Positions 8,880 through 64,000 of a stretch of 64,000 bases of DNA are shown in pieces (the first letter of the stretch is position 1; every line of letters begins with the position of its first letter). A program made the position numbers and the translations under genes. The stretch comes from Quercus robur (lineage: Eukaryota; Streptophyta; Magnoliopsida; Fagales; Fagaceae). The notes below the pieces were generated by a model, which was given only the letters and a program-made list of their open reading frames with translations, was not told the DNA's origin and searched no databases. The stretch spans positions 46,587,777 to 46,651,776 of the forward strand of contig NC_065543.1 in NCBI RefSeq assembly GCF_932294415.1, written 5' to 3'.

Positions 8880-10552
8880 ATGTTCAACAAATTTTTGCAT
8901 TTTAACCTCTAGTTTATTACATTCTTTTTTCTTATATAATAATGGTAAGATCACTTTTTATATAATAAGTTCATAATAATAAAATTGTGGGTTTGAATTA
9001 ACTCAACTGCTAAAGTTGTATCTTGTTGTATTTAAACTCCAAATGACCATAAAATTGTTTTATTATAAATTAAGACCGTTAACTAATAAACAAAAATCTC
9101 ATGTCCCATATTTAGTATTCCATTTTATACTCTATAATCACAATTACCTAAGTTTTTTATATTTTAAACTTTAGTAATTTTATAAATAAAAATAATAATA
9201 ATATGTAGCAAGAAATAATTGGTGGAGCATAACGTAAAATACATATTAAAAAAGGGCAAAATATTTTTACTTCTTAATTATGGTAATTTTAGAAAACACC
9301 CGATTTGAAAGGAATATGATTAACCGTGAACAACATATCTTCATTTGTTGTTATGACCACAAGAGACAGAGACAGCCTTAGTCTTAACAAAAAACCGTTT
9401 TTCAAACAGTTTTTGACTCCAACGGTATTCAACTGACTATTGGATCAGCAATCATCCTCGGCATGAAAACATAAACAACCATTTTTCATTGATGAAAAAG
9501 CTAACCCATTCCTTTTTCTACTATTTTGTCAGTTAAGATAGTAAAAGAGAATCACAGAACTTAACAATTATTAGCCCAAAACAATGAACTCTGGTTTTGA
9601 CATAGTTGTTGCATACGAAAATGTGATATTAGAAGACAGTCAACACATAAAAAATGAAGGCACAAACTGAACTTTTGCTAAATAAAGATATTGTAAATAC
9701 ACTGAGGTGGAAACATTGTTAGAAAAAAAAAATTTCAAGAAAAAATTACACATATTTATCCCATATTCTTGAGTTATTTGTTCTTTTTTATAAGGAGAGC
9801 AAAGATTAAAATCCCCATCTCCCATTATTTTAACTATAAAATAAAGTATGAAAAATTGATTTGCAATGTTCACACCACCCTCAAAATCAATAATTAGTTT
9901 TCATCAAAAAAAAAAAATCAATAATTAGTTCATATTAAAAGGCAACTATCTAGCCAAAACTATCGGAGCTTTTGTATTGTACACCATAAACTACGAAAAT
10001 TCTACAATCAACTTCATGATTTGAGTTTAATTATCGAGACAACAACAACAACCAAACTTTATCATAAATTTAGTCCTTAATTTTGATAATTTAAACATTA
10101 ATTTGGATGGCAAATAAACATTATAAATTAGTCTTGAATTGATTTTTTTTTTATTGCAAAATTTTGTGATTTAGGATATATATTACAAATTATCTATAAT
10201 GTGGGGAGAATAATTGCCTGTAACTAAAAAAAAAAAACATATATGATCCTTCTTTCCTTCAATGGAAAAAGAAAATGCCAAAACATCCTCTACATGACTA
10301 AACCCTCTCATTATTTGTACACATCCCCGATTATATGTGCAATAAACTTCCCTCATGTCATAATTTCCATTGGCTTGGGAATCCACCTCCGTCTTCATCA
10401 TAAATACAAACTTCAAGGAGAGATTCACCACACATACAGTTGCATTGGAACCTTTCTTTTGGCCAAGATAGCCAATCTCATTTGCCTACATTTCTTGAAC
10501 TTACATCTGACATTAACCCCTTGAATCTTTAAAGAATTTAAGGTCAATGTAT
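8880..10552. other. Intergenic stretch downstream of the CRK gene
   Basis: No gene recognised. AT-rich with one micro-insertion (9885-9930). The CRK 3' untranslated region should lie immediately below 10553 because that gene is read from right to left. Confidence 0.6.
9885..9930 (+). mobile_element. Poly(A) micro-insertion with 15-bp TSD
   Basis: The 15-mer aatcaataattagtt at 9885-9899 is repeated at 9916-9930; between them lies ttcatc followed by an A run. Confidence 0.75.
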
Positions 10553-13500
10553 TTACCTTATCTCAGATGCTTCACATTTTGATGGACTGGATTCAGCACT
10601 GTCCACAGTTGTGGACTCAGCAGCAGTATGAAAAGAAGACACTTCAGTTCTCAGTTGCTCATTAAAGGAATGATCACTGGAATAATAGGACCGTTCAGTT
10701 GTTGTTTGAAAGTTTGAGGTTGAAGTTCTTGCAGCTGAATATTGGTTAGTTTCATCAGAACTTAGGATACTAGCATTTAAGAATGGAGCCTGTGTTGGTG
10801 AGGGAATGATATATTCTTCATCGTTTAACATCCGAACCACTTCAGACATGGATGGTCTTAGTGTAAGAGAAGTTTGCGTGCAAAGAAGCCCAATTTGAAG
10901 CACATTCGATGCCTCTCTTACAGAATATCCACCATCAAAGGAAGGATCAACACATTCAAGAATTTTGTTTGCCTTGTAATTTTTCCAAACCTGATGGCAA
11001 CACGATGAAAACCATGTCATGTGCTGAGACCTATACATATGGTAAAATAATTCTAAAGAAAATAACAAGGGTTGCATAGGTAGGTTTTAAGAATTCAAAT
11101 GAAGTGAATTTTTTAATTTCCACAAATATTAGAAAAGAACATATAAATGTGCCCTATTTAGAATGTTGCTATAGAATATAGATTAGGAATGCAAAAGGAA
11201 TATGAATCTTACAGATTGCAAAACCGAGCTCGATCTTTGTGTGAAAATACTGTTCTTCCTACCGCATACAACCTCAAGAACCAGCACTCCAAAAGCATAA
11301 ACATCTGCCTTCTCGGTTAGCTGTCCTCGAACAAGATATTCAGGAGCCATATATCCCCTGCAACAAATGGTCATTGTTAACTCTTTAAGAAACGGAAAGA
11401 ATCATTCACAATTTCAGTGACTTTTGAAAACTATATGGTGGCTAACTATTTGTCAAGTTGGAACAAATTCTATACTCTTAACTTGTATGTAAACAATGAT
11501 GTAGACCAAATATTAGATGAGACTAATGGAGATAGTTTGTGCTTACAGTGTTCCTGCTATTCCTGTACTAATATGAGACTGATCTGGACCAACACATTTA
11601 GCAAGTCCAAAATCAGCAATCTTTGGAGTAAGATTCTCATCAAGGAGAATGTTACTGCTTTTTATGTCTCTGTGGATTATTTTCACTCCACAACCTCCAT
11701 GAAGATATGCAAGGCCTTCTGCTGTTCCAATTATGATATCAAACCGCTGCTGCCAATTTAGAATGAGGAAAGTGTCCTTAACTGCAAAAATAAGAGTTTG
11801 ATTAATAATTAGAGAAATAAAATTGGAGTGGATAGACATCCAACACTATCCTACATGCTCTCCAGCTAAATTGTATCTTAAGTTAAATGAAACACAACCA
11901 AATTGAGACAAAGTTTGTTAAGATGCCAAAATCTGAGTCATGGTCATCCACCATTTCAAATTCCGAAGGACGTGTGGCTTTGTTGGCAGGTTGTACATAT
12001 TGCAGTTTTCAAGATACCTCATGCTATTGAAGTTATAAGTAAAGTTAAGATGCATTACTCACCGAAAAGGATTTGATCAAGGCTTCTGTTAGGTACATAT
12101 TCATAAACTAGAAGGCTTTCGGGGCCCTCAATGCTGCAACCCAAAAGCTTAACAACGTTCTTATGCTGAATACCACTGATCAAGTTCACCTCATTGAAGA
12201 ACTCATCCACCCATTGCCGCGTATTGAACATCAATCTTTTAACTGCGACAATTCTCCCATCAGGGAGAGTCCCCTTAAACACAGAACCAGCTCCACCTTG
12301 GCCTAATTTCCTTGAGGAGTCAAAACCATTTGTGGCCTTCTCAAGTATTTCATACTTGAAATTCAAACTAGACTCTCTCACGGGAACTGAAACCCCATTG
12401 AGATTGTTTTGTGCTGCAGAGAAGCAAAAGAAGGTCAAACTAAAACATGGAAAAAAATGAACATTGAGAGGCTATTAAGATTTAAGACATGCCAGTTTCT
12501 TACAACTTATTTTTCAGCTTTTCGAAAATAGGGTGTTCGAAAAAGTAGTACCTAAAAAAAAGTGAAGCTTAAGAAAGTGCGGCTTGATAAATGTATGATT
12601 TTTGACAGAAATGTACCTTTTTTCTTCTGTGATATTCTCTTATAGCCTAAAAGAGCACCAAAAAGAGCAAACATAGATAAGGCAATAGCTGATAAAATGC
12701 TTGCTATGATGATCCCGATTTTAGATGACCCTGAAAATACATGAAATGAGGAAAATAAATTAGTAAGGTTACTAGCAACCCCACCCGTAGCAGAGATGAA
12801 ATGCCATAACATAAATTAAGAAAGGAATGTATTAAACTAAATATCCATCACATAATTACAATTGCAGGACCTCGAGCAAACAAAACAGGAAAGAAGGGGC
12901 GTAATATAGGTTCATCAGAATTAGAAAATAAAACTCAAGAGAGTTCCATTGAGCACATAATGTGAATTTATAGAACAAAGTAAATCAAAAAAGACAAAGA
13001 ATATAATTCACTATAAGCCATTGAAGAGCTCTATTTTCTCAGGGTCCAACATCAAATATATACCATCATACCCAACACTCAAATTCAAAAACTTAAGGAA
13101 ATAATGCCGAACTAAATAACAAGTACAAGTACTTAAACTAACCCCCCACCCCCCCCCCCCCCCCCCCCCAACAAAAAAAAAAAAGGACAAAATAAACAAT
13201 TAAACAGCCTCAAAGAACGTTCATACAAAATAGTATCCAATTAAAACAAAATAAAAAACACATTTGCTTTGTGAGAGTAACTTGTTCTTACCAGTTTCAT
13301 CCTCTTCCCCAGCGCTATCAGCAAAGAATTTCTCTGTAGAATACCTCAAATAACAACCGCTATTCATAACCCTGCCATCTGTGGCCGGAGCACATTTTCT
13401 CAATTTATTCCGTGCATCTAACAAGCATTCTTTGCAACTTTTAGTATCCACTGTCATCCAACACTGCGCCATTGCATAAACAGCCTCCAGACCTCCTCTT

Positions 13501-14036
13501 TCCCCTGACAATGCAAAACCTTTGTTCAACACTGCCAAGTCAGTCACATTTTCAATAACTTTAAACACTTTTTCTTGAAACTCCTTTCCAATGTACACAT
13601 CTTTGCTAACATTTGTGGGCAGGCTACACTTCACGTAGTCATGCTTTTCATTGAGGGACTCTTTGAAGAAGTTATAGGTATCGTAACGAAAGAAACAACC
13701 ATCAAGATAAATGCGAGCCGAGTTTGAAGGAAGGCATTTAGGAAGCCTTGTCCTGGACTCAGAGTAGCAGGATAAGCAATCCTTGCGTGAGAGGAAACCA
13801 TAGCATTGAGCATATGTGAAGATCTCAGGCTTTGTCGAAAGCACAGCATTGGCTCCCCAATGCTCATCATTAATTTTTCTAGATACTTCTTCCATTGAAG
13901 ATATGAAATTAGGAATGAAGTTTGGGCTGGATTCCAGCTTTATGGAACCACAAAATTCGCCGACTAAAGAGGCTTGAGGGTCAGAGAGGGAGACATCGAA
14001 GAAGAAGAGGAAGATGAAGAAAATGAGGAACACCAT
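10553..14036 (-). CDS. Cysteine-rich receptor-like protein kinase (CRK2/CRK3/CRK42 group)
   Basis: Exons on the minus strand are 14036-13292, 12730-12617, 12413-12063, 11781-11547, 11357-11213 and 10990-10553. All introns are GT-AG with consistent phases and join to 675 aa, normal for the family. The start at 14036 was chosen because a hydrophobic signal peptide (residues 1-20) follows it at once; an upstream in-frame ATG at 14144 would add a charged leader. Two DUF26/Gnk2 domains (about 25-125 and 135-240) each carry the C-X8-C-X2-C motif. One membrane span lies at about 254-276. The kinase domain (about 320-600) has the glycine loop [11 protein letters not shown], Lys345, HRD with Asp442, DFG with Asp460, and GTLGYMAPEY, so it is an active RD-type kinase by motif. 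The family sits in the plasma membrane and signals in stress, immunity and redox responses; the ligand is unknown. From memory the kinase is closest to Arabidopsis CRK42. A C run lies in intron 1. Confidence 0.93.
13142..13169. repeat. Poly(C) tract in CRK intron 1
   Basis: A near-uninterrupted C run (G run in the CRK sense strand), directly followed by an A run, inside the 561-bp intron between the ectodomain exon and the transmembrane exon. Confidence 0.9.
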
Positions 14037-14343
14037 TTGGTGCTCTGTTTGATGCTCTGTTTCTTCTGTTTCATATGTTTTAGTATTGGTAAGAAACAGA
14101 GCAAATGGATGTTTATCTCCTTCTTTTTCCCTCTCTCTTTTCATGTGAGAATTGGGAGAGGGAGAGAAGTTGAACCCAACAAGGGAATGGTGTGGTTTGT
14201 GTAAATTGCTTTCTGTTTCTTCTTCTTACTTTTTTGGGAAGCATGATTTTTGTTTCAATGTTTTGGGGTTCCACAAAGAGAGAGAGAGAGAGAGAGAGAA
14301 AAGAATGTATGAACTGGATTTTGTTTGTGTTTTTACTTTATTT

Positions 14344-14396
14344 AGGCTACCGTTACATGTTTCTCAAAAAAATAAAAAGGAGGCTACCATTATATG
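14344..14396 (+). mobile_element. Poly(A) micro-insertion with 16-bp TSD
   Basis: aggctaccgttacatg at 14344-14359 and aggctaccattatatg at 14381-14396 (two differences) flank tttctc plus an A-rich tail. Confidence 0.65.
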
Positions 14397-14734
14397 AAGG
14401 AAGATTATAAGGTTCATGTTGGACACTCATAAAATCTTCAGTGAGATTAGATAAAGGTGCAGAATGTTTGACACCTGACAAGCTTGGATTATATATATAA
14501 ATTAGGGCCACCAAAATGGTTAAGGTCGTAAATAGCCCACCTATTTATGAATAATTTAGATTCGGTTCAAAATAAGTTTGATTATGTTTAGTAATTTAGT
14601 CAAACTTAAGCATAATAATATATTTGTGGACTATTATATTATCATGATTTTGGAGCTCGATTTATGTGTGTGTGTATATATACACACATATGTGCGTGTA
14701 TATGTGTAAAATACACTTATAGAAAGTCAAGAAT

Positions 14735-14792
14735 AAATTGACTAACTAGTTTCTCAAACAAAAAAAAAAAAAACAAAAAAAATTGACTAACT
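14735..14792 (+). mobile_element. Poly(A) micro-insertion with 13-bp TSD
   Basis: aaattgactaact at 14735-14747 and 14780-14792 flanks agtttctc followed by an A-rich tail. Confidence 0.75.
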
Positions 14793-15255
14793 TTGTAAAT
14801 AAGCTTAAAATATCAAATTATTATTTTTTATTGTTGATAATATGCATAGTTAATTTCATAGTAAAAATCATTTCTATTCATACAAAATAAGTGAATATTA
14901 TTTTTATAATTGACTCAAATAATATAATTTCAACTACAATTTTATTATTAATCATTAGCACAGATTTGTGAATGGATAATAAATTACTCATTATATTTAT
15001 TTTGAATAAATAATGAGTTAATCAAGTAACTTGTAAATAAAATCAAGCTTGTTATGATAAAAATTAAATTAAATTAACTTTTTTTTCTAAAAAAAAAAAA
15101 AACACCAAACCAAACCAAACCAAGGCTGAACATATAATCTTCCTTTGTGATGAGTTCGAGCTTTGCTGCTATTCAAAAATTAGAAGAATCAATCCTTAAA
15201 ATTTTAATACCCAATTTAGTTTGGCTCTAAAAATAAGACTTGTTTAACAAGTTAA

Positions 15256-15310
15256 AGATCTATAAAACTTTCTCTCAAAAAAAAAAAAAAAAAAGATCTA
15301 TAAAACTTTC
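15256..15310 (+). mobile_element. Poly(A) micro-insertion with 17-bp TSD
   Basis: agatctataaaactttc at 15256-15272 and 15294-15310 flanks tctc plus an uninterrupted A run. Confidence 0.8.
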
Positions 15311-16146
15311 CATATAGACATTTTTCTTTCATTTAATTGATTTCTAGTTAGGAGTCTCCTTAAATGCAAAAGTCTTGTATGTGCTGGGTGCATGAGATAC
15401 CTTCTCTACTTAAACACATCAATACTAGTAGTGGTAACTATGCTGAGAAGGCAAAACCGTACCTCCTAATAGTTGTAGTAAGTTGGTGGATCAAGAGGAT
15501 TGTAATTGCAATAAGGAATATAACTATAACTTAGATTGTGATAGATCAAATAAATGTACCAAAATAATAACTTGCCTAAAAATGAATTTATGTGTTCAAC
15601 CAAGATCAACCAGTGAGACTGGACGAGCAGGTCCTGATGATTAAGTAAATAAAACTTTGGAAAGAAAAGCAAAATGCACGGTAATAGCATGTCTCTTATA
15701 CAAACTTTTGTGTGTGGGGTGATGGGGTATTTATAGGACAAAATAGATGGTAGGCCTATTAGAAAATCATCCTTTCAAGTAGGCTGAGGGATGCATGACA
15801 AGGGTGCAGCCCCCAAAATTGCAAATAGATAGAACAAATTCAATTAATCGCATATCATTTGAATGATAGTTGGTGAGACACAATATATGCTGATATGAGC
15901 AACAATGGTACATTTGAGGGCGCTCCTTTCTTAGAGGGTTCACTGTCGCATCCATTTGCCAATAGAGAAATACCAATAAAAATTAGAGATTTAGAGTTTG
16001 ACAAATTGTTTAGGATGGGTTAAGGAGAATAATCAATAATGTCTTCGAGTAACACCTAGGAGATGGAATGCCTCATGTTGTTGCATAAGTCATAACAAGG
16101 AATGTCCAAACATGTTATTTTGTGTGCAAAATTCTGGCAAAATGAG

Positions 16147-16177
<31 letters not shown>

Positions 16178-16283
16178 CCAAAAAATAAGATTTGAGAGAG
16201 ATAAACACAAAATATGGTCATAAATTCATGTATCTTATCAAGAGACTTATGGTTCAACTAGTGTTTGGTGTTTTCAATTGAGA

Positions 16284-16423
16284 ATTAGGGGTGTGCATAG
16301 GTTGGGTTAGGTGGGGTTGAGGAGTTTTTTCAATCCAACCCACCATGGTCGAGTTGAAAAAAGCTCAATCTAACCCAACCCATCACAAGGGTCCAACCCA
16401 ACCCATGTCAATCAAGTTTAGAC

Positions 16424-16463
<40 letters not shown>

Positions 16464-16841
16464 AGCATTGGAAATTTAGAATAACAAATTTATAAGATTA
16501 CCAACATAGATAACAATAAATTTACTAATCAAACCTGAGCATAGCACCAAACAAACACAAATTATTTGATTTATACATCTGCTGGTAGTTCATCAAACCA
16601 AAAGAGTAAATAATAAAATTATATAAAATATATATATTAAATATAAGTGAGTCGAGTTGAGGCGGATATGTAAATCTGTTAACCCACACCCAACTCAACC
16701 CACTATAAAAAATAAAAATAAATAATTTTAAAAAAATGGCAACGCAACCTAACCCATTAACCCTTAAAAACCAACCTAATCTAGTGGGTTCGGTTAGATT
16801 TGGTCAGTTTTGACAAACCGATGGATTGGCTGCATACCCCT
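16284..16841. mobile_element. hAT-like non-autonomous element (558 bp, 8-bp TSD)
   Basis: Flanked by identical aattgaga at 16276-16283 and 16842-16849. The left end attaggggtgtgcat and the right end tgcatacccct are inverted repeats (aggggtRtgca). Subterminal gggttgggtt/aacccaaccc words sit at both ends in opposite orientation, and a run of about 35 A lies near 16426-16460. There is no transposase coding. An 8-bp duplication with aggggtg termini fits the hAT superfamily. Confidence 0.8.
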
Positions 16842-16849
16842 AATTGAGA

Positions 16850-17618
16850 TATTCAGAATTTTGATTCTTTTATTTCATAATTTCAGGGAATTTTATGAAT
16901 TGGAATCCATTATGATATTTAGCATGCTACCTAACAATTATATTATAAAAATAGTTTTACATGATATATCATTAATGTGAATTATCTTAGCTTGAATACA
17001 AGAGTTAGCATATAACTTTGGTAGATCAATAAATAAAAAAATGCCTTACTATAAATACGCATGCTTGACATAATCAAATGGAAGCTACCCAAGCCGCCTC
17101 ATAATAAGTCATAAAAGGATGTCAAAAAAAAAAAAAAAAAAGTCATAAAAGGAGTATAGAGAATGTCGTAAGAAATACCAACTATGATGAGAAATGTACA
17201 GCACTGGTGTTACACCACTCAAGCATTATGAGTTAATATGTGGAACTTTAAAACTCATTTTTCTTTCTTCTTTTCTTTCTTTCTTTCTTTTTCTTTTTTG
17301 ATAATTCGATAATTATAATGAAAAATAAAGGATCTGAAGTCTAGATATGAATTTTAAGAAGAGAGAGGTATATAAATCTAAGCAAACAAACATAAATTCC
17401 TAGTCTACTTACTTACTTTTCATATTCTTTTTTTGTTTCACTTTTTTTATGTTGGAGAAAGCTTTTCTTTTTTGGCACAATGACCTAATAATCCTATTAT
17501 ATATATTAGAAGTTATAGATGAACTCCACATAAACTTAGCTTTATCAAATTTGAAATTAAAGCTAACTTGGAAGCTTCTCTAAGTGTATTTTGAAGCCAA
17601 AATTGGATTCATCTTATT
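16850..17618. other. Intergenic stretch
   Basis: No gene. Contains one micro-insertion (17107-17153) and a (TTTC)n-type stretch near 17264-17299. Confidence 0.6.
17107..17153 (+). mobile_element. Poly(A) micro-insertion with 13-bp TSD
   Basis: agtcataaaagga at 17107-17119 and 17141-17153 flanks tgtc plus an A run. Confidence 0.75.
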
Positions 17619-17623
17619 GTAAG

Positions 17624-18329: not shown

Positions 18330-21304
18330 TATTGATAACTACTTTTGTAAATTCGTTTATATATATATATATATATATATGTTTTTTTTTTTTTTAATTT
18401 AACTGTGAGTTGATTTAGACATGTTTAAGGGGGAAAAAAAAAGAGGAAAAAGGGGGTGGGTCGACCAAAATTCATCCTCCCAAATGGAGAGCAAAAGTAA
18501 GGAAGAAAAGGTTTACTACATGAAATTTACTATTTTACCCCTTTTATCCACAATATTTTCTATCCTTATTTGATGTGATAAGAGCATGGCAATAAATTCA
18601 TTCAAATCATTTTTATTTTTTCATTTTTCCATCCCCTCTATCACATGCGAGGAAAACTAAAACATTTTATATCATTTCATGCCTATTGCCTCCCAAGATT
18701 ACATTAAGGTGGAATTTCATCGTTACTAATACACACTTTGCTTGAGTCAGATAAACTAGCTTATCCCTATCACCAAAGCCTTAGCCTAATAAACCAAGGC
18801 TCCATTTTTATTTCTCTTCTTGTATAATGTTCTCTTTTAAGTGCAATTAATGACCAAGCAGAGTGTTGGTCTATCTCTACTGTATGGTGATTGTTATAGT
18901 GGCTAGTGCACACAACCTTACTTGGCAGGGAGAAAGAGGGCCATTAATTTTTGAACCCTTAGCATGATACATTGGACTGAACTCTCAAACTGAATACATA
19001 TAAAAAACCATTATATCTTCTACTCGAGAATATCCCATGAACGACACAAACAGCAAAGCGAAAAAATGGAGCTCAGGTCAGGCAGCTCAATGTTACACAT
19101 TTTCTGGACGTGAGAGAGAGAGAGAGAGTAGGCTAGGGTTTTTCCTATGTGGGTGGCTGGCTAGTGGAGCTAGGCCACTCTTTTTCTCAACAACCTTTTC
19201 TATCTATAATGAGATGCTTGCTTCAATAGCCTCTTGCAGTAAGCCTAGTGATAGGTTTTTCTAATGGGCTACCTACATGGATGTATATTGGGTCCAATGC
19301 TAACACCCTAGGCAGGCAATCGAAAGCATATCTTTCATTTGCTTCCACACACTTGTTCAACACATAAGGGTAAATGCTTTATATGACCAACGTGTTTAAC
19401 TTGCAAGGCGCAGACACTACAACTAAACTCCAATGAAACCAACATAGTGTAACCCCTAACAAAACAACAAAGACCCATATGATCGCATCATATTTAGTTT
19501 CCTTTGATCCCTCATGAGCTTAACCAACTTAGAGCTAAGCTCGATAACCCAACTTCACAGTAATGTCCTCATAGTCATGTCCAAACTCCCTACGTTGACA
19601 TGAATGCCAAAGAATAATCACAAAGCCATGATGTGTTACTAATATCGTCTTCCCTTCACCTTAGTGCCATTCAAATTTGACCCGACAGTTAACCAAACTA
19701 TGTCCATTCGGGTCTAATCACTCATGGTCTCATGGCCATAGACAACAAGCTAAATCAATAACCATTGTTCGTCTATCTAGTGTCATAACAACTACGTGGT
19801 ATGATCACATGCTATAATGGGCTTTTGAGCAAAAACTCTTTCATCCTCGCAAATAATTGTTCAAAACGGTATGGACCATTTACGAGGACTAAAATAAGAA
19901 AAGTGGACGAAGATACAGCTCCTACTTTGTAACCCCACCCAAAAAGGACTCAACGAGGTAAAGCAATCTTTTAGTCTAGATGATAATCTTAGGCAACGAC
20001 AATGAGTTATGAAAAAGTAACCATTATGCCCTACTCTTTTGCGCCACAACAACATTCAATCACATAATTCTCCATAGAATCAACTCCCATTATTTTTTAC
20101 AATTATTAAAAAAATAGTGCATGAAAAGTAGTTGATTATGATGGGGTTTTACGTTTTCAAAAATTATAACAATTTATTACTTATAAATAGCAAAATTGAC
20201 CAACCAACGTAATTAGCGGAGCTAGGGGTATGCCCCATGCACCATTAGGCAAGAGTGGGCTTCATCCATGCATGCACTCTTCATTCTCTTTTTCATTGGC
20301 TGGGGTTTCCAATTGAAACCCTAGCCGAGATCTCCTACTTCCATTCTTCATATCTCGCTGCTTCCACTTCCATTTTGCTTGTTTTTTGTACTAACATACA
20401 TCATATTACACATACTATATATGATGATATAGAATCACTCAAAACATAATGATTTGAAAGATATATTCAGAGTGCAAAATCGATAATTCAAATATGTAAA
20501 CCAAGCATAAAAAGTTTGATCTCTTTTTACACTCATCCAAATTAACCACATGTTGATTGCTCCTATGGAACCCTATGGTAGAGGAGAGGCAATTATCAGT
20601 GTCACTGAAAACCAATGGAGGAAAAAGATATTTGCATGGCAATTTTTTTTTTCTTTTGCTGAATAGATATTTGCATGGTATTGCATCAAACTAAATTGGA
20701 TTTTAAATATTTCCTTGCTATTTATCCAACACGCAATGAGGAACCGTGCACATCCTTTTGCTTACCAATATGAGTGCATACTATACATCATTCGGAGACC
20801 AAATGGTCCAAATCCCAAGACTACTGTTTGATGGAACCTTAGAACATGGAGAGCACTTAAACCTTAAGGCCCAACGCCAACACTGCCTAACGCACAACAC
20901 TGGCTAAATAACTCAACCACCCAGCCCAATACACAACCTTTCCTAGCTAAACAAGATCTTATTATTAAGGTGTCTCATCATTTGACCCAAAGTACACAAG
21001 ATTGTGCTTATCATGGTAATGTAAAGTCAAAATTCAATGTGGAGTGTAGCGGTCACTACGTACGTTGGACATTATATACAAGCCATTTGGGATGGCGTGA
21101 AATGCAAGTCCCATTTGAATAGTAAGAAACAATCAAGATCTCTTTTGTCTAGCTAACTAGTTAGAGTAACACAAGCCTATATAGCAACCAAAACTAAGAT
21201 TAGTAACAAAAATATATACAAGAGAGCTAAGTGGTTAAGCAATTCATTATGCATTAGAAAAGGGTCGTGTCCGAGTTCCTCATACAAAATAATAGGATCC
21301 CACC
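18330..21304. other. Intergenic stretch between CRK and KNOX genes
   Basis: No gene recognised. (AT)n at 18359-18380 and (GA)n near 19110-19128. The sequence from about 19265 to 20060 is less AT-rich than its surroundings and codes nothing I recognise. One micro-insertion lies at 20626-20678. The KNOX 3' untranslated region should occupy the right end, just below 21305. Confidence 0.55.
20626..20678 (-). mobile_element. Poly(A) micro-insertion (minus orientation) with 14-bp TSD
   Basis: agatatttgcatgg at 20626-20639 and 20665-20678 flanks a T-rich insert; read on the minus strand it is attcagc followed by an A-rich tail. Confidence 0.7.
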
Positions 21305-24300
21305 TTAGTCATTCATGAAAATTGGTCCATAGAGACTATCCATAACAGCAAATTGCATGTTCTCTGATGGTTTCCAGTGACGCTTCCTTTGATTTATAAA
21401 CCAGTTATTTATTTGTTTCTGATCTAGCCCCGTTAAATCAGCAAGGGAAACCTTGTCTGCTTCCTGAATGATGAAAAACAGTGTAGTTAAAATATTGTCA
21501 AGGACATTGGAATCATTGTACTACCATAAACCCAAGCACCTCCTTTTTTTTTTGGCTCAAACTAACCCTAGCACTTGAAGTACATTCGAAGTTCTAAGCA
21601 TAAAACACTTTGCAACTGTTTCATCAGGATAAAGAAAATATGACTATTGCTTCCAAGAAGTGCTTACCGTTGGGTATGGCCATTTGTAATGAACATTCCA
21701 CCACTCGAGCAGGATCTGCCTTGCTTCTTTGGGTAGCTTGCCCTTCTTCTTCTTTTTCGAAAATTCATGCTTCAGGCTACTGATATAACCGCTATATTTC
21801 CGCAAGAGTTTGTCCTTCAGTTCACGATCCTCATTTGAACGCTGGCACTCCAGCGCCTCAATCTCTCCACCACTGACATCTTCATCAGATGATCCATCTA
21901 CTTCATCTGGTAAGATACAAAAACCCACAAGTGAAATTTTGTTTGCAACTTGTCCTTGCTCTACAGAAATGTGCTTAACATCAAAACAAAATCATGGAGA
22001 AACCATCAAAAGCGTGGAAAGAATCTTGAAATAAAAATGCCGTGCATATATATTGCAGATAACTTTATAAAAAAGAATCACACAAAGTACAAATCGATAG
22101 GCATGTTAAATAAACATATGTCAACATTTAGTGTTACTGCTATTACTCAACACACTCATGACTCACTTTTTCTACAAGAACAGCAATATTAACACTCATT
22201 GAGACAAAATCACGTTTATCAAATGAAGGAGGAATCCCTTCATCAAAATTCTAAAGAACATAACCATTAAATTTTGAAGTTGAAAGAGGTGAATCTCTAA
22301 ATCTAAATATACCTTAAAAATTCTCTATTGGACGGTGTATACCTAGATGAATGGATTTTGCCAAAAACTCACAACCATACTTCCACAGGCAAAGGAAATT
22401 GAATACAGAAAATGTTACTGTCAAATATAAAGTAACAAACATTATGAATTAAAATTGGTTAATCAAACCAAAGAAAACATTATTGGATAGATAAGTTATA
22501 TTTTTTTGATAAATAAAAGGATAGATAAGTTATATTCATATCATAATGGCTTTCAAGACATTAATCATCCTTGAATTTAATAATAGTTAACAAATAAGAA
22601 CATAAACAAATTAGAGGATGCCAGTATTTCCCTATTTAGGTCATCATGAACTTAGAACTTTTGGCACGTGAATAAAAATCAAACTAAACCAAAGCGTGAT
22701 TCACGAGTACACATGTTTATTTCATATAAAAAAAAAAACAAACCATCTAGAAAACAATCTAGACCTAAATATCCAATGGGCATAGCAAAAGATATACACA
22801 TATGTCAACAAAATCCACATAATGGTGAAAAACATGCACTCATTAGGTTAGATCATCACCATGCATGGGCAAAAGGTGATAGACCCATGTACTTGTAGTG
22901 CAGACAAACTCGTCAAGAAAGGAAAAATAATTTGAAACCTAACTATAATCCAAGTACTTCAACCGTAGAGTTAGTCTAGGGTTAACTCCTCTATATAACC
23001 AACTTAAGATTAATTGTAACATACCGTTCATATAACAAAGATGTAACCACTTAATTTTATCCCCAAAAAAAGACATAAGACTGTCAGGCAAACTATAAAG
23101 TATAAACTACATCAAGCCCTACGTTTTGCTTCCAATTTGTCTTTCTACATTAATTTTATTTTCCTTCTTTCTTATTTAACATTTTAATGAAATAATACAA
23201 AGCAAAGTTTCAACTTTCAACCACAACTTTTTCCCAAAAAGAAAACTTTAAACCCCAACAGAAATTAACAAAGTAATGTTTCTAGTTCACAAAAATCAGA
23301 AAGGGGGGGGGGGGGGAGGGGGGGGGGCCTGATGGAGAGAGAAATGGGTCACTAACACCACAGCAAAAGGTCACCCAAGCTAATAATGGAGTCAACCTTA
23401 CCACCATTGTAATGGAGCATGACTCCATGTTTTCGCGGATGTGATGTAACACTATAGCCAATGCTACAAGCAGATGGGACCAGACGGGACCTAATTAGTA
23501 CTTTTTATTTTTTGTGTACACAGATAATGAGAGAAAACAAGTGCACGAGAGAGAGAAAGAAAGATGACTGAACAGTGAACAGAGACAAAGAAAAGATTCG
23601 TAGGTTCGTTGTGTCGTATCGCAGTCGGTGTGTGAATTGGGAAGTGGTGCCTTTGCCAAGGTACGGCCGTCATATCCAAAATTATTTAAGAAAAATATAT
23701 AATATATATATAAAAAAAATTCCCATATTATAAGCTTGCTTTTCAATTTCTGATGGGACTACCCTTCAAAAACAAAAATCTTATGTAGGCTTTTGTTTTC
23801 TACTTTTGTCCATTAACATTGGAAAAAGGAAAAGGGTTTTGGCCTATTTTAGTGAATAAATAAATGGGTTTGAACCTTTTTCTTACTAGCTGAAGTTATC
23901 CCCAGAAAAAGAAGATTGAAAACCCAGATATCACAAAAATGACACACACAGACAGACATTTATCAAGATTTATATATATAAATGCTAAAACTACTACAGA
24001 TTTTAGTACATAACACTTACAAAATAAGTGAATGGTGAATTTCAGAGTCATAATAAATGTCAGAATTATTTTTTTATGTTCGTAAACACATTAGTTTGTA
24101 AAATTTATAGTCTCTTAGCTGTTAAAAGAGTTTGTCACTTTTTCATTTTATCATATAAAATTTCTAAAATAGTTTAATATCGTATGCCCTAGGAGTATAT
24201 GTTAATAAAACCCTAGTCTAGTTTCTTTCTAACTTTTTTTTTTTTTTTTGAGAAACTATTTCTTTCTAACTTAAATCAGAAGCTCAGACTTATCAAAAAA

Positions 24301-27300
24301 AAAAAAAAAAAAAATCAGAAGCTCAGAAAAATGAAGAGACAGAGATTCATATATAAGTTATAAATAACCGAAACTGCACCATGAAAGAGTGTGACTTAAC
24401 TTTTAAGGCTTATTTATTGATACAGAGTAGGACTAGTCACTGGCCAACAAAGTAAAAATTCCTAGGGAATAGTAGTAATACAGCGATGGAGTGAGACTAA
24501 GATTTTGAAAGCGCAGGTTGGAGCAGTGTGATTTCATCATATCAAAAGCTGACACCACCGGGAACCACGGGGGAGTCCATGTTTGGTCTCGGACAACTTT
24601 TTTGTACAACACATGTTGTCCACTTTACCCTTCCATTATCCACCTTATACCCAATAAGTACACAAACTCCGAAAAATAAAAGAATATAAGCTCAGCAAAT
24701 TCAATGTGGTTTTGGTTCTAAAAGCCTCGTGTTTGGTACCAACAATTTTTAGTTTTTAAACAATTTTACACATATTTTTTCACTCACACATATTTTTAAA
24801 AAATACAAACAACATTACCAAACGGACTATTTTTGCAATTTTATATTGTACTTTCAATGAATAAACAACTAAACAAAAAAACTAATCCAAACACACTTGA
24901 TTAGGACATGATGAGGCAGCAAATGTTTATATTTTTTTTTTATTAAGCTTATACATTTTCTTCATTTGTTTATGTACAGTTTTTTAAAGCTTCATTTCCC
25001 CCCCCCCCCCCCCCCCTAATGAACTACTCAACTTATTACTAAAATAAGAAAAGATAAGTCAATAAATATATTAAAATAAGCAATAGTCTATAGAAGAGTA
25101 AAGGGAAATGCAAGGAGAGTAATAATAAAAAATATATATAACTTGTTGATCAAAAGAATACTTCTAGCCAGCCAACTGATTTTCAGGTTTTTTTTTTAAC
25201 TAAATTGCTTTGATTAACAGGGACAAAATCTACAAGTGCAAACAGTACTGTCAAAGAACAATTGCACCTACACAATTTATCTAGTAATTTAGTTGTGCAT
25301 GCAGCAGGAGGAATGAATAAGAAAGGAAAATAAAGGTTCATTTCCTTACGTATTTTAAATCATACTCTAAGATTTCATTCATGTTTCACCGCTTGTTTGA
25401 ATGTTTGTGTTCTACTTCAATTGAGGACACATCATTTATGTCAACAAACAACAACCCAGTTATTAGTTAGACTTTCAACATATGAAGCCCCTCTAAGTTC
25501 TTCCATTTCTGCACCAAACTAAAATTTTGAGATTCCAAACATATATAACTGGCCAAATACAATGTGCTAGTATGTGTGCGCTTGTACGTTTTCTTTTGGC
25601 ATTTGATAGACCAGATGTACTGAACAGAACACATGAAATTATCAATATCTGGGGTTTCTATAACAAATTGTCCACAACTGTCAAAAAACTTGCAAGTAAT
25701 TTTATATGCCACAAACTAAAGCAACGATATACCTTCCCAAAAACTAGTCTATAGCAAGATAAAGATAACACATGAAACTTTCCGATGTACAACCTCGTGC
25801 ATGCAGTCTACTGCTTTATTCTCAAAGTTAAAATATGAACAAACTACAGATTGTCAAGCTCAAATTTTAATAGTTCAGTGAGTAACTTTTAGGACCACAA
25901 ATATTAAAGCACATTCTAAGGCCTGTAAGCTCTTTTAAAGGTTTGAATCTTCTAAAAAAAATGAGAGAAGAGAGAGAGAGAGTTTGCAACTTGCTTTGTT
26001 TTATAATAAATTCACTTGGTGCAAAGCCAGTAGTCATTAACCACATAGAAATATGAATAACCCTCATTAGCATCATTATTATTTATTTTCCATAAGAACA
26101 AACCAAAATTATTTCGTTAGATGATACACAGGTAACAATAACCCTAATTAGCATAATCTTCAGCATGCAAATCCATATTCATCTATATTCAATTAACAGA
26201 ACAATTTTTAGGTGATACACAAGTGGTAAGAAAACTCATTAAATTGTGTTTAGTACCAAGCAATACAACAGGAGGAACTTAACCTTGATTCTACTTTGGG
26301 ATTATGACGCATCGAGTGCTAAGCTAAAAATTTCTCTTAGCAAGCCAAATCAAACCATGATTTTTTTCTCACTTTTTGCATACTACTTACTTTGCAATAG
26401 ATAATAGGACAAAATAACATCCTAAGAATGCAAAATGAAGTATTTTATAACCCAATAGGCATATTACAAAAAATGACCACCAAACTTGACAAACATTTGG
26501 CATCTTTCACATATCTCTAAACAATTTTATATATTTACTACAATACTAGGTAAGTTATAAAAAAAATAAAAAAGTACAAAAACTAACATCCATAATTTAA
26601 AAAGTAGCCTCCACTCTCTAGAACTAAAAGCATTAAGTCTCAAATTTCAAGTTTTCAACTGAAGTTTTCAACAATCTCCCTTTCAAAATAGAAAATCAAA
26701 CTATCTGCAAGAAATGCACCCTTATTTTGATGTGAAGTCTTGTTTAAATAATTTTTATGAGTCCATGATTATAAATTGTTTCAACAACAAAATAGCTTTT
26801 TTCCTCCCCACTACGTAAAGAGCCAAAAGCAATGTGCTTCCTATTATAAGGAGTGGGTGGTTATTGCAATTATATGAATAAGGGTTTAATTCAAGTGATT
26901 GGTATATATAATATAATAATCAAAGGTTTATGATTTCATTTAAACAAAACATGAGTAAATTTAGGCCTTTCTCCCACGCATTCATATAACCTAAATGATC
27001 AAAATTTTAGGCTGGCCCCTCATTGCCATTGCCATTGAACACTTCAGTTAGTACAAAATCATTTTTTCACAATACAAGAAAATAATTACTAGTTAGTTGC
27101 GCTTAGTCACATACAAGAGTAAACAAACATGTAGAGAAAAAGAATAAATAAATAAATTAGAGGGGTAACGAGTATAGATAAGTAGCAGAAAAATACAGAT
27201 TATTAGATAGAAGAACACAATTAACAACTACAGCTAATATAAGTCTAAGAACTTTAAAAATAAAAATAAAAATTCTTGCAAGTTTGGAGAAATCTGACTA

Positions 27301-36089: not shown

Positions 36090-36137
36090 AAAGTCTGAAT
36101 ATGAACATTTCCAAAAAAAAAAAGTCTGAATATGAAC
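36090..36137 (+). mobile_element. Poly(A) micro-insertion with 17-bp TSD
   Basis: aaagtctgaatatgaac at 36090-36106 and 36121-36137 flanks atttcc plus a short A run. Confidence 0.8.
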
Positions 36138-38795: not shown

Positions 38796-38849
38796 TAGAC
38801 GGCCGAACTTTCCTCAAAAAAAAAAAAAAAAAAAAAATAGACGGCCGAA
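38796..38849 (+). mobile_element. Poly(A) micro-insertion with 12-bp TSD
   Basis: tagacggccgaa at 38796-38807 and 38838-38849 flanks ctttcctc plus an A run of about 22 bases. Confidence 0.8.
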
Positions 38850-43409: not shown

Positions 43410-43763
43410 AAGGCCCAAGTGCTAGATAAAATCAAGGTCTTGCATGGTCCTCGGACTCAAGCTTATGGGGAAACTAGACGCTCTAACAGCCTAAGTGCTA
43501 AACAGAACCAAGGTCTTGCATGGTCCTCAGACTCAAGCCTACGGGGAAACTAGACACTCTAAGAGCCCAAGTGCTAAACAGAACCAAGGTCTTGCATGGT
43601 CCTTGGACTCAAGCCTATGGGGAAACTAGACACTCTAAGAGCCTAAGTGCTAGACAGAACCAAGGTCTTGCATGGTCCTCAGACTCAAGCCTATGGGGAA
43701 ACTAGACACTCTAAGAGCCTAAGTGCTAAACAGAACCAAGATCTTGCATGGTCCTCAGACTAT
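43410..43763 (+). repeat. 76-bp minisatellite, about 4.6 units
   Basis: The phrase aaggtcttgcatggtcct (aagatcttgcatggtcct in the last unit) starts at 43434, 43510, 43586, 43662 and 43738, an exact 76-bp period. Each unit also carries actcaagcctatggggaaac. It keeps an open frame for two units only because 76 is not a multiple of three. Not a CRISPR: there are no unique spacers. Confidence 0.92.
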
Positions 43764-44214: not shown

Positions 44215-44600
44215 CAATTTTGCTCTAACAACGACTAGGCAAGTCTGGATGGCACTAGTGACAGAAGAGAAGAAGAAGTAGAGGCATTTGGTCTACAACC
44301 TTGCTCTAGCAGCGACTAGGCAAGTCTAGATGGCACTGGTGACGGAAGAGAAGAAGAAGCAGAGGCATCTGATCCACAACCTTGCTCTAGCAGCGACTAG
44401 GCAAGTCTGGATGGCACCAGTGACGGAAGAGAAGAAGAAGTAGAGGCAACTGGTTCACAACCTTGCTCTAGCAGCGACTAGGCAAGCCTGGTAGCACCAA
44501 TGATGGAAGAGAGGAAGAAGCGGGGATGCCCAATCCCCATATCTGCTCTAGCAGCAACCGAGCAAGTATCGTTCTAGCAGCAATCGAGCAGGCACGGATG
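44215..44600 (+). repeat. 81-bp minisatellite, about 4 units plus decayed ones
   Basis: gctctaRcaRcgactaggca starts at 44222, 44303, 44384 and 44465 (exact 81-bp period); a shortened unit follows at 44544. Each unit contains gaagagaagaagaag. The period is a multiple of three but no long ORF runs through it. Confidence 0.9.
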
Positions 44601-55175: not shown

Positions 55176-55184
55176 TGTATTATA

Positions 55185-58500: not shown

Positions 58501-61500
58501 TTTCAAACATTTTATTTTGATGGTTGCATATTTTGAACTCCCCCCTAATATAAAATACAAAATGAAGCCATCAAATTCCACGGGCTGATTGAACAGGCCC
58601 TTAATGGTCTTGAATTTCATGTTTTGATATTTATTTATATCTCTAGGATATATTTTTCTCATACCTATTCTTGCTTACTCATTTTCACTCTCTCCTTTCA
58701 GGTTGCAAATCTATCTGGCATGGCTATAGTCACACTAAGCATTAATTCAAACTCTATAATAAGTAGACAAGGGACTCCAGTTTCCCAAGTTGCACCAGTT
58801 ACTTTCCTGTATGGTACGATCTACACTAGTTTACAAGTGTTACAAAGAGAAAATAAATCATCTGTTTGTAGAAATCAAAATTCAGTTTTAATATTCTTTT
58901 ACTCAGCTTGTTGAATATAGAAACTTTTGAGATTGAAATTTTTTTCCACGATTCTATGCAATCAGGAAAGCTTTACATTTGGATTTCTATTTTTAAGATG
59001 TTTCCTCCTGATAGATATAAATGTGACCTTCAGATTCTTTGAGGCCTGCTGTAAGGTTGAGTACACCATCCCATCTGAGGACAAGAGAACATAGCATCCC
59101 TATGTTAATAAAATTCATGAAGCCTGTATTTGGTTTCAACTCTTCTAATATATCAATCACAGGAGGGCATTTACAGAGGCAAGTCATTTCTGGTTACCTT
59201 TGTGTTTGTATATATGTATATTAACCTGTACATGATACGTCACATAAATAATGCACTTGCACACAAATGAGAAACCATAATGGTGACCTCTATACAATAT
59301 TTGGGTTCTTGATGGAAATAATAATTCAATTAGTATGGCATATATACTCTCAACATTTTGTCATTTTTGTTCCCCTCCAATGATAATCATTATCATTTTC
59401 AGCTTTCGTGACATAAGTAAAAGCACATATTCTATAGAGATAAAAGCAGACCATGATATTGTATCTGTCTATGTTCCCGAGAATGTAACTGGGGATGTTG
59501 CTGGAAACAAAAATCTACCCTCCAATGTTCTACAAGTAAGGCACTGTAAGGATTCTTACTCTTTTCTCTTGTCGTCAGCTCAATTGTTGTCCAACATCTA
59601 AGCCCTAGGTTAGCCCTTTTATTTTCTTATTTATTTACTGATGTAAGGTTAAAAAACATATACAGATTCTGTGCCCAAAATATCTTCTGTGATTTCTAAG
59701 CTTGCAACCGCTTCATTTGTGGTGACATCTATTGCTTCCGGGTTGCTTATGGTTTCAATTGCAAGCCTTCACTCCATTGGGGAATTTTCAAGACCATTTT
59801 CTTCTTCTTCTGATCCGGCAAGGAATCTTTTTGTATGATATCTAATTCATTTGAACTATTATCTCATTAATTGATTATTTAGTTATACCATGATAATCTT
59901 TTACATGGGGGGCTTTTACACTGAGTTAGAAAAATAAATTGACATTAATGCTGAGGTTGGATGTTATAAAAAGGGTAGAGATAAATCTAACAAACTCTTT
60001 GGGGTTGAAACAAATTTCTTTAAATGACATTATTGACAAACAATCATGACCCCAAAAAAAGTTCTGATAGCATGTCGATGTGCACCTTTAACTTTCTTGG
60101 GACACCTTGAATAAGAACACTAAGCACATTATTGGCGATCTCTTCATTCTAAAGTTTGTTTATGGTCTTATTCTTTGCAAAGCATTTCATTTATGGTAAA
60201 ACATGATCTTTCTGATGTACATATCATATATGCTTATTTTTTCTTGGTGGTTGATCCACTATTTTGTAAGGTTGAACCAGAAGTTAATCAAAATGTACCA
60301 AGCAGGTTATCTCACTATGATTATATTATATGTAGCCTCTTGAAAATCGAGTAAAGTAATTAGAAATACTGAGGAACAAATTAACCCTTTTCCTCCTGTA
60401 GAAAAATAATACACTCCAAGAAAAACTTTCCTTGATTTTTATACAACAGATTTAATATATAACTGAACTCTCTAAATATTTTGGTTGGTTTTGACCATGT
60501 TGTCTGACTTCTTGAATCATAGGACCAACTGAATCCAGTGGAGCCTGTTGGTTCCAAAGATGGAAAACTCGGATTGACCTTTTCAGAGTGGGATTTTGTG
60601 GGCAGGGGTGTTATTCTATTATTGGCATAAAAAGAGAGAGGAGGAGGAGGAGGAGGAGGAGGAGGGGGGGGGGGGGGGGGGGGGGGTGGGGGGGCAATAG
60701 ACCCTCAAGAACTGCATCATTCTTGTAGAACTTGTCAAAATCATATTCTTGTAGAAATATATGGTTTTTGGCATGTAGATGATTGTAACCTACTGCCATT
60801 TTAAGTATCTGATATATAGCTTATCAAACCTTATGAACTGCATCATTCTTGTAGAACTAACTTGCATTTTTCCTCTTCTCTTTCATACAGAGAATTGCAT
60901 GCCATATTCAGGTTTTTGCATTATCTAGATGGTTGGCAGTGACACTGCCAGTGGAGTATCATGAATTTGCAAGGGGTTTGCAGTGGAGCATTCCCTACTT
61001 CAATCTTCCATGGGAAACTCGGAACACCCAGCCGGTCTTGATGGGCTCAAGTCCCCCTTCCAACTCACATCCCTACATATCTAAAATTCATGATTCAGAA
61101 AATTTTCCAGGTGTGCAGCTGAAACAAGAGAATTTGAGTAGGGCTGCTTCTGTATATGGGTTGCCACTGACTCCAATGGAATATAGATCATACTTTCAGG
61201 TCTGAAACCTCTACTTTTCCTGGTTTCTTCAATTATCTAATGAATAAATTTTGTGATAGAATGCTTTGTACACCTGCAGAACCAAAATATTAGACCAGAA
61301 GCTGAATATATTTTGGATCCGCATATTTTAAATGGGTAAGTTATGAGGACTCTTATTTTCTATTATTACATGCACTTGCATATGGATTTTAGAGACACAA
61401 AACAAGTGGAGAAATTATTCCATATGGAGTTTTTTTTTTTTTTTTTTTTTGGGCAAAAAATATACAATATAAAGCAGAAAAACTATGAAAGAAACAAAGG

Positions 61501-64000
61501 AATATTTCGACAATATATATATATATATATTTTAAATGTTGAATGGAAGATAAAGAATTTTGGGAATGTACGATTTGGTATACTTGTTATTTAGACGTAG
61601 AATTTTTTTGTAGGTGCTGTGAAAAATTAAAGCTGTTGATGCTTTGAATTGTTGCAAATTATATTTCAAACCGAAAGGACATTCTTGATACTTCATACCC
61701 TATTATTCATTTCCATTTAAATTGGTGAATTCATCATTTGGATTTGAGGTGCCATAGACATACTCATTTATTTATTAGTGTAATATCTTACTAGATTTTG
61801 TCTCATGTAGGTGGAGGGATTTTAGTAGAAGCATGTTCTGCTTAGCCATAATTGGTGGCAGTTTCATACTGCTGCATGCTTTACTCCTTGTCATCCTAAA
61901 ATTCAGGAAGAAAAATCCTGAAAAGCAGAGGGGTTATGGAGTACTCACATTCCCAAGATTTGAAATATTCCTTATAATTCTTGCACTACCTTGTATTTGC
62001 GAGGCCTCTGCTGCTCTAATTAGAGGTAACTTGACAGTTTGTTTCCTTCCCCACAAATGAATCTTTATCTATTTGTTTATGGTGCAAAATCTGAGTTTTG
62101 AAAGGTAATAATCAGTGGCGACTCCAGGAATATTTTTCAGGGTGTTTCTGGGTGGGCTTGCTCTATTACAATTTTTTTTTTTAGATTCTCTATTACAATT
62201 TTTTCTTTTTTAGATTTTAGTTCAATTTTTTTTTTTTTTTTTTTTTTAGCTTTTTCTTTTTGCTTGAAAGCAATGTTATGAATACTGTTTTGGACACTGT
62301 TTCGATTTGTTTAGTGGAACAGAATATTTCAGTACTGATCTATTTCGATGTACCATTTTAGGGTATTTCGGGGTTTCTAAAAAAAAAAAAAATATATATA
62401 TATATATATTTATATTTATATTTTCTTATACAACATAAAATTATTGATCCAAATAAATAAACCTCAAATAAAACAAATCGTTTAGTTTTTCTTTTTTGAC
62501 ACTCAGATCATTTAGTTATTACATAACAATTACTGTTTTATAATATTAAAACATAAATATGTAATTAAATAATAAAAAACAACAACCAAAAATAGTACAA
62601 TAAGAAGAAGAAGAAAAAGAAGAAGAAGAAGTAGGGGCGACCTTTGCGATGGTTGGATTTGTTTTTTAGGCATTTGACGCAGGTAATGACATGCTGTGCT
62701 GACGAGTTTGTCCGTTTAGGGATTTTTCTTTTTTTCTTCTAAAAACTGGTACCGGCCGAAATGTAACAAATAATCCACCAAAATTTAATTTTGAGAAATG
62801 ATATGTCCATGGCATTTTCACAACATTTTTACAACAAATCCTAAGTGGTAAGTTGTTATTGGTTATTATTGTTGTCATAAAAAAGTAATCTTAGTGCTAG
62901 GTTCAAATTTGAACTAATAACAACTAACCACCTATAATTTGTTATGAAAATATTGTAAAAATGTTGTGGACAAAGCATCTCTCTTTAATTTTATTGGCAT
63001 AAAAAAATTTTGAGGGTGTTCCTATTTTTTTGAGGGTGTTCTTTTTTTTTTTTTATTTTTTTTTTAAGGGTAGATAAATAAAAAATATTTAATTATTACA
63101 TATAATTTTTTTCTTTTTTTCAGGTCAGGGTGGTCCTGGGACCACCCTGACCTCTATGTGGCGCCGCCACTGGTAATAATGCTGCTTGTATTGTATTTTC
63201 ATTGCAAACCCAATATTAATGTCTTTCAAATTTCTACTTATATTGAATTCTTTAATCAAACAATTGTCTACTTCTCATTATGAAACGCATAGAATGAGCT
63301 GGGTTTTTATTTATTTATTTATATATATCTATCAAGTCATTTTTTCTATTCTACTTTCCAAATATGTGATGTAATTGTGACCATGTTCCTTTCTTGTTCA
63401 TATAAGTCTCATGGAATTAATCATTATCATATTGGTTGGCACCAGAACTGGTCTACTGTCCCGTCTCCTCACATATTTTAGAATTTTCATTCAGTTGATG
63501 TTTCACACTGGTTGTACATTAACTCAAATCACTTCTGTGCATGACAACCATCATATCATAGTTATCTGACTGCATCATATCAGAGTTACACCAATGTGTA
63601 TTGAGAACTAAGATTCACATTTTTTGCACATTTACATGCTATTTTTCATTGGTTTTAAATTTTAACGCTAAGAACTTCAAGTACAGATCTACATGGTTTA
63701 ATCTTATCTTACTTTGTGGATTAAGGAGGATCGGCATCAGAGATTATAGTTGGCATTCTGCTTCTGGGTGCTGTGTCATTTCTACTGCTGGTATTGCTCT
63801 TGTTCCTCTCTATAGGTATTACATTTGCAAAGCTACTTCAATACAAGGAAGTTCATCAAGTAGGTCGGAGATTTCACTGGTATCAAGAAATAGTCCGAGT
63901 AACACTGGGTCCTGGTAAGAGAGGCCAGTGGACGTGGAAAAATCAACAGAACTCTAATTACCTAACCATGTTAGGGCCTCTATTTGAAGATTTAAGAGGC
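55512..64000 (+). CDS. Uncharacterised plant multi-pass membrane protein with large ectodomain (partial, 3' end outside)
   Basis: Thirteen exons with consistent phases: 55512-55718, 56237-56372, 56849-56985, 57585-57786, 58032-58270, 58702-58813, 59034-59178, 59403-59545, 59666-59832, 60891-61199, 61280-61335, 61811-62025 and 63726 to the edge; at least 781 aa. Exon 7 ends with a GC donor (AG|GCAAGT); the others are GT-AG. The start at 55512 opens a signal peptide (MGLLKLPLLVLLCWVF). Residues about 25-470 are a cysteine- and N-glycosylation-rich outer region, probably Ig-like (DTVPPTAYI, INISFSEPC, VYLYFSEPV). Membrane spans follow in exon 9 (VVTSIASGLLMVSIASL), exon 12 (CLAIIGGSFILLHALLLVIL and EIFLIILALPCICEASAAL) and exon 13 (IIVGILLLGAVSFLLLVLLL). 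The conserved C-terminal part, including GPGKRGQWTWKN, marks a plant-wide family that I remember only as uncharacterised. The layout recalls TRP/Pkd2-like proteins, which is inference. ATG 55467 is a possible alternative start. Confidence 0.85.
57202..57325. repeat. Tandem duplication, 62 bp x2, in intron 3 of the membrane-protein gene
   Basis: agcacaagcaataatggtgg begins at 57202 and 57264. The units differ at about one position (gatttgtta / gatttatta). Just upstream, ccctctagtgtaatg is also doubled. Confidence 0.9.
60637..60694. repeat. (GGA)n followed by poly(G) tract in intron 9
   Basis: GGA repeats, then about 30 G with a single T (60687) in the sense strand of the membrane-protein gene. 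Shortly after, gaactgcatcattcttgtag is duplicated (about 60710 and 60836). Confidence 0.9.
62477..62517 (-). mobile_element. Poly(A) micro-insertion (minus orientation) with 11-bp TSD
   Basis: atcgtttagtt at 62477-62487 and atcatttagtt at 62507-62517 (one difference) flanks an insert that on the minus strand reads ctgagtgtc plus an A-rich run. Nested in the hAT element. Confidence 0.55.
62793..62983. mobile_element. MULE-type MITE (191 bp, 9-bp TSD) nested in the hAT element
   Basis: Identical tttaatttt at 62784-62792 and 62984-62992. The ends gagaaatgatatgtcc and (reverse complement of the right) gagagatgctttgtcc pair, and pairing continues through cacaacatttttacaa and aagttgttatt/aataacaact. 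The 9-bp duplication suggests Mutator-like mobilisation. Confidence 0.85.

Follow-up and report, generated by a model that had tools for sequence, protein, structure and literature searches.

The window

The window analysed here is a stretch of 64,000 nucleotides of the Quercus robur genome (contig NC_065543.1, positions 46,587,777 to 46,651,776 of the forward strand), whose open reading frames we take to resemble plant genes. It carries a series of very short insertions, hereafter micro-inserts, in which a direct duplication of the target encloses a few bases, the pre-tail, followed by a run of A. Twelve such places sharing one layout had been listed in an earlier note drawn from the sequence alone. 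All twelve were found again where that note had put them, and each is single-copy in the window (Table 1). The duplications, described there as 11-18 bp long, have this length at most sites; at 9883, 15254 and 17106 they are longer than had been noted once the shared leading A bases are counted. Mismatches are present at 14344 and 62477. The A-run generally lies directly before the second copy of the repeat; at 20626, three extra bases follow the tail.

Table 1. Micro-inserts of the window, with duplication, pre-tail (in insert orientation) and tail
Feature	Position	Strand	Duplication	Pre-tail	Tail and remarks
Micro-insert	9883..9930	+	17 bp, exact, AAAATCAATAATTAGTT	TTCATC	A-run
Micro-insert	14344..14396	+	16 bp, 2 mismatches	TTTCTC (preceding G ambiguous)	A-run, interrupted
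Micro-insert	14735..14792	+	13 bp, AAATTGACTAACT	AGTTTCTC	A-run
Micro-insert	15254..15310	+	19 bp, AAAGATCTATAAAACTTTC	TCTC (CTTTCTCTC if duplication overlaps)	A-run
Micro-insert	17106..17153	+	14 bp, AAGTCATAAAAGGA	TGTC	A-run
Micro-insert	20626..20678	-	14 bp	ATTCAGC	A-run, then TTG
Micro-insert	22485..22536	-	18 bp, AATATAACTTATCTATCC	TTTTATTTATC	A7
Micro-insert	24222..24272	-	14 bp, AAGTTAGAAAGAAA	TAGTTTCTC	A16; target boundary common with the 24273 site
Micro-insert	24273..24327	+	16 bp, AAATCAGAAGCTCAGA	CTTATC (ACTTATC with shared A)	A20
Micro-insert	36090..36137	+	17 bp, AAAGTCTGAATATGAAC	ATTTCC	A-run
Micro-insert	38796..38849	+	12 bp, TAGACGGCCGAA	CTTTCCTC	A22
Micro-insert, probably older	62477..62517	-	11 bp, 1 mismatch	CTGAGTGTC	A-run, interrupted; missed by automatic scan

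Two of the inserts, 24222-24272 and 24273-24327, had been reported as exactly adjacent, and this proved correct. They have different end types, lie on opposite strands and abut exactly at one CTT/AAAT boundary, as if the target had been nicked once per strand. Further TA/GTTTCTC inserts were found at L002, L005 and L006, genome loci chosen by similarity to the 24222 stretch (L-numbers designate other loci of the same genome, taken at random, picked by similarity or picked by their end sequence). In the window, about 7 bp separate the 24222 insert from the end of a preceding dispersed repeat, roughly 100 bp long (24117-24215), which has at least 40 other matches in the genome at 73-87% identity.

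The layout is genome-wide and directional

Besides the window, we scanned a random sample of the genome (786 Mb, 42 contigs), consisting of 200 kb in 20 pieces drawn from parts of five contigs. For the loose scan, an A-run of at least 7 and a repeat of at least 10 with at most one mismatch per 10 were accepted. In the swapped-flank control, the right flanks were exchanged between A-runs; in the mirror control, the same layout was searched reversed. Over the window and the random sample together, the loose scan gave 45 matches for 566 A-runs, as compared to 0-4 per swapped-flank trial (20 trials). It recovered 11 of the 12 window sites, the one at 62477 being missed because its tail is interrupted.

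A strict scan of the random 200 kb alone, a sequence that the earlier note had not covered, gave 21 matches for 419 A-runs, as compared to a swapped-flank mean of 0.44 (maximum 3, 100 trials). In the window, 8 strict matches were obtained for 0.13 expected; seven of them correspond to sites of Table 1, the remaining one, near 62159, being a tandem repeat. In the mirror layout only, the strict scan matched 3 A-runs of the random sample and 2 of the window. From the strict and loose counts, set against swapped flanks and mirror, it follows that the pattern is genome-wide, directional and not due to chance. The concern that a control might give the layout as often, which the earlier note had raised, is thereby set aside.

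Target site and empty site

In order to describe the target, inserts whose pre-tail does not exceed 13 bases were pooled in a catalogue of 36, which includes six end-picked inserts, six from L002-L006 (similar to the 24222 stretch) and one tandem repeat. Duplications in this catalogue measure 10-24 bp, with 13-19 bp in 30 of the 36. Two or more A open the duplication in 26 of the 36. Immediately before the duplication stands T in 22 cases, C in 10 and G in 4, A being impossible by construction; TT precedes in 9 of the 36. Thus the duplication starts match the target expected of an L1-type endonuclease, of the TT/AA kind, and the remark that most duplications begin with A or AA, as for cutting by the endonuclease of a long interspersed nuclear element (LINE), holds in this catalogue. 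Two further marks of LINE products are present: target-site duplications, for which about 7-20 bp is expected, and a 3′ poly(A) tail of a single orientation (in the random sample, 21 matches forward and 3 in the mirror layout only).

An empty site was found in one case. At L012, minus strand, position 7277, an insert with the pre-tail GTTCCT and a 21-base tail stands between 17-bp duplications. In a local duplicate of this locus, the target is present once, differing at two bases, and both the pre-tail and the A-run are missing. The + strand of L012 also bears a 96-base insert before a 16-base tail, within a 16-bp target duplication. By its likeness, we take this longer insert to be a copy of a tRNA-like short interspersed nuclear element (SINE).

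The retained piece has a preferred length

When exact duplications of at least 11 bases were demanded, 27 of 541 A-runs had a partner within 690 bases. The pre-tail measures 4-11 bases in 19 of these 27 and 0-3 bases in none, and the swapped control does not exceed 0.2 per bin. The pre-tail lengths in the random sample (n = 21) were 4, 5, 6, 6, 7, 7, 7, 8, 8, 8, 9, 9, 11, 11, 13, 16, 23, 24, 26, 26 and 30. Twelve of the 21 thus retain 4-9 bases, with a peak at 6-9.

A second sample was picked by end sequence and comprises 60 places: 40 ACTTATC, 10 TTTCTC and 10 GATTCTC. The ACTTATC places are consecutive along contig C1, save ten passed over in dense clusters. By gapped comparison, a duplication lies within reach in 28 of the 60 places (ACTTATC 18/40, TTTCTC 4/10, GATTCTC 6/10), for a null of 3.7% per place; among the TTTCTC calls, that at L088, a CT-rich repeat, is possibly spurious. 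With a stricter, ungapped comparison, 14 of the 40 ACTTATC places retained a duplication, for a null of about 1%. Among the 28 inserts with a duplication, 21 keep 4-8 bases, most commonly 7 (9 of the 21). By end, this range accounts for 14 of 18 ACTTATC, 4 of 4 TTTCTC and 3 of 6 GATTCTC inserts. The remaining seven retain 9, 11, 11, 15, 18, 20 and 22 bases. As for the ACTTATC places without a called duplication, 18 of the 22 resemble by eye longer LINE copies. The random sample matters here because selection by a 6-7-base end conceals shorter stops.

Overall, the favoured length of the retained piece is about 7 bases, a property that goes beyond what the earlier note had observed. That note had judged the inserts too short to be ordinary SINE copies, and rightly so: they have no body, and in place of the promoter-bearing (Pol III) body of a SINE there are only a few pre-tail bases and an A-run. 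Its other proposal, a distinct retroposon made of poly(A) only, is not supported, as the exact-duplication set holds no insert with 0-3 bases and only 2 of the 45 loose-scan matches have no pre-tail base at all.

Source of the pre-tail ends

We then compared the pre-tails with the 3′ ends of resident LINEs. A LINE at L019, with what we presume to be reverse-transcriptase motifs, ends in ACCTTTCTCTC-A23, and CTTTCTCTC is its end. The window end noted at 15256 can be read as CTTTCTCTC because the duplication there ends in TTTC, and the final nine bases of this site are identical to those of the L019 LINE. A profile search of the genome with zf-RVT (PF13966) gave 11,839 first-look candidates, of which the best 150 were scored, all above the cut-off. 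Nine of the 12 zf-RVT loci examined (L031-L038, L040) end in TTACTTATC followed by 8-16 A. At L043, LINE coding homology reaches to 75 bases before the ACTTATC tail.

End sequences were counted genome-wide, with the same pattern read backwards as a control. ACTTATC-A10 occurs 1952 times as compared to 87 backwards, TTACTTATC-A10 1279 times as compared to 8, TTTCTC-A12 7068 times as compared to 440, and GATTCTC-A10, an end taken from one random-sample insert, 1790 times as compared to 32. In view of this enrichment, ACTTATC, TTTCTC and GATTCTC are copies of repeated RNA 3′ ends. A match to the 3′ end of a resident LINE was obtained for ACTTATC (the nine zf-RVT loci) and for CTTTCTCTC (L019); at the loci examined, none was obtained for GTTTCTC, GATTCTC and most other ends.

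Concerning GTTTCTC, L007 and L027 share an element, about 127 bases in alignment, that ends in TTTGTTTCTC-An; L089 and L090 have its last bases only. This element is possibly a non-autonomous source of the GTTTCTC ends. A tRNA scan of L007 led nowhere. At L072, a possible 32-base insert ending in ACTTATC has an unrelated body and imperfect flanking repeats, as judged by eye only. In L032, L036, L041 and L043, a hairpin of variable stem sequence and pyrimidine-rich loop stands about 35-65 bases before the tail (covariation assessed by eye only). Finally, an estimate that 94% of the ACTTATC places are truncated, made from AATGAA upstream in 114 of 1952, was dropped because the 40 places inspected include many longer copies with AATAAA, AATATA or AATAATA signals.

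Other features of the window

A dispersed repeat with an internal A-run of 35 bases occupies 16283-16846. Two minisatellites, with units of 76 and 81 bases, lie at 43413-43761 and 44220-44520. An Rfam search gave 0 matches.

Origin of the micro-inserts

We consider it likely that the sites arose by target-primed retroposition, carried out by the resident L1-type LINE machinery, with copying ended just past the tail. The earlier note's view of the inserts as retroposition footprints 5′-truncated almost to the tail is supported by their polarity, the target preference, the LINE 3′ ends found at part of the sites, the three enriched ends and the empty site. In this scheme, an endonuclease would nick the target at T/AA, and the A-tail of a polyadenylated RNA (LINE RNA, perhaps others) would prime on the nick. 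The reverse transcriptase would then copy the tail and only about 4-9 further bases, most often 7. Cutting of the second strand some 10-20 bases away and joining of the ends would produce the duplication. The enzyme would thus be an L1-type LINE reverse transcriptase rather than another, and copying would break off at a preferred point shortly beyond the tail. We considered and rejected the idea that the base of the LINE 3′ hairpin sets the stop, the hairpin being about 35-65 bases upstream of the tail in four measured ACTTATC LINEs.

Several observations weigh against this interpretation. The hairpin is too far upstream to explain the stop directly, and its fold is not better than that of shuffled sequences in all eight sequences. 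Six of the 21 random-sample matches retain 16-30 pre-tail bases. In the loose scan, 8 of 45 matches have 0-3 bases (none in 2, 1-3 in 6), a class that by eye is mostly low-complexity or mismatch-bearing, one zero-base case lying in a low-complexity repeat. The loose mirror count reached 18; by eye, many of these are low-complexity stretches or can be read in the forward layout as well. A single empty site was found, and a second duplicated locus, L049 and L050, has an A-run in both copies and is not empty. Searches with the flanks 14100-17400 and 22350-24600, the two regions covered, revealed repeats nearby and no insert-spanning paralogue among the best 40 of 1323 and 204 candidates, respectively. 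As to the ends, of the 15 random-sample inserts whose pre-tail is no longer than 13 bases, only 4 bear a counted end and 11 bear none; 4 of the 15 end in T rather than C. At the loci examined, a LINE reading frame was tied to neither the GATTCTC nor the GTTTCTC ends, and neither the longer GTTTCTC copy at L007 nor L027 gave a LINE coding match. AATAAA stands 4-24 bases upstream in 197 of the 1790 GATTCTC places, and the notion that longer copies are absent for this end was dropped accordingly.

Because 11 of the 15 random-sample inserts carry no counted end, some of the ends may derive from cellular mRNAs. One may go further and suppose that such mRNAs, mobilised in trans and truncated, supply many of the inserts, the pyrimidine-rich and mostly C-ended pre-tails being plant mRNA cleavage sites. 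The AATAAA motifs upstream of GATTCTC are as in polyadenylated RNAs, and L1-like retrocopies are described in dicots (PMC4838847). We nevertheless find this unlikely. Three ends recur more than 1000 times each, for which a small number of prolific sources would be needed; two ends, ACTTATC and CTTTCTCTC, are those of LINEs; and mRNA templates alone leave the length class unexplained. The length class could instead reflect a short template: an RNA decayed from its 5′ end to a stub of about 7 bases plus poly(A), shielded by the reverse transcriptase itself or by a protein bound to the tail, and retroposed whole. The 5′ edge is alike for three different ends, as a protein footprint would give, and the lack of 0-3-base pre-tails in the exact-duplication set speaks in the same direction. 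Normal templates are also used, however, since most ACTTATC places without a duplication resemble longer LINE copies; we hold a trimmed template to be rather improbable. Abortive copying and a trimmed template would yield the same sequences, and are as such inseparable from sequence alone. A few matches elsewhere are low-complexity or tandem (window 62159, 53477), as would be expected if replication slippage or tandem duplication beside the A-run had produced the repeats. This origin is extremely unlikely in general and was rejected on the polarity, the swapped-flank control and the empty site; the LINE-matching ends also speak against it.

Comparison with known retroposition products

Retroposition ended just past the tail would make the micro-inserts relatives of the 5′-truncated copies of plant L1-clade LINEs, which they resemble in duplication, poly(A) tail, T/AA target and, for part of the sites, LINE 3′ end. 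They differ in retaining about 4-9 element bases as a length class, whereas truncated LINE copies span 100-1,000 bp according to a review (PMC3747384). Dicot processed pseudogenes have the L1-like hallmarks in common with them (target sequence, poly(A) tail and duplication; PMC4838847), but the micro-inserts have no gene body. R1 and R2 insertions of Drosophila are also 5′ truncated, with microhomology or non-templated bases at their junctions; they are site-specific in 28S genes, and a 7-base class is not apparent in the excerpts of the study concerned (PMC2718515). Microhomology at truncated junctions is likewise described for human L1 (PMC2912911). SINEs, too, are short, poly(A)-ended and flanked by duplications; the micro-inserts are too short for a promoter or a body. 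A literature search, which covered titles and abstract openings and left most subscription journals outside its coverage, returned no description of such a 7-base class. Marked 5′ truncation of LINE copies is a known kind of event; the length class of about 7 bases appears to be new.

Scale and significance

The 15 inserts with a pre-tail of 4-13 bases in 200 kb scale to about 59,000 per genome (Poisson range about 33,000-97,000), an estimate that is rough because the sample consists of 20 pieces from parts of five contigs. We tentatively propose, as a possibility still short of an even case, that target-primed copying by plant L1 elements has a separate early stop, about 7 bases beyond the tail, and that the resulting micro-retroposons, in the tens of thousands, are the most numerous LINE product in this genome. 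Surveys of LINE product length would miss them because a 7-base remnant cannot be masked.

If this is true, repeat annotation would overlook the micro-retroposons, which would form a record of endonuclease strikes. They would also be a seed bank for A/T microsatellites, a plausible link that the earlier note had made, and would explain part of the origin of these microsatellites in plants. Were the length class to hold genome-wide, it would offer a natural measure of the rate at which the machinery nicks a target, primes and then abandons copying. The step from initiation to elongation of target-primed reverse transcription would then be open to study from genome sequence, and the inserts would provide many fine-scale insertion markers.

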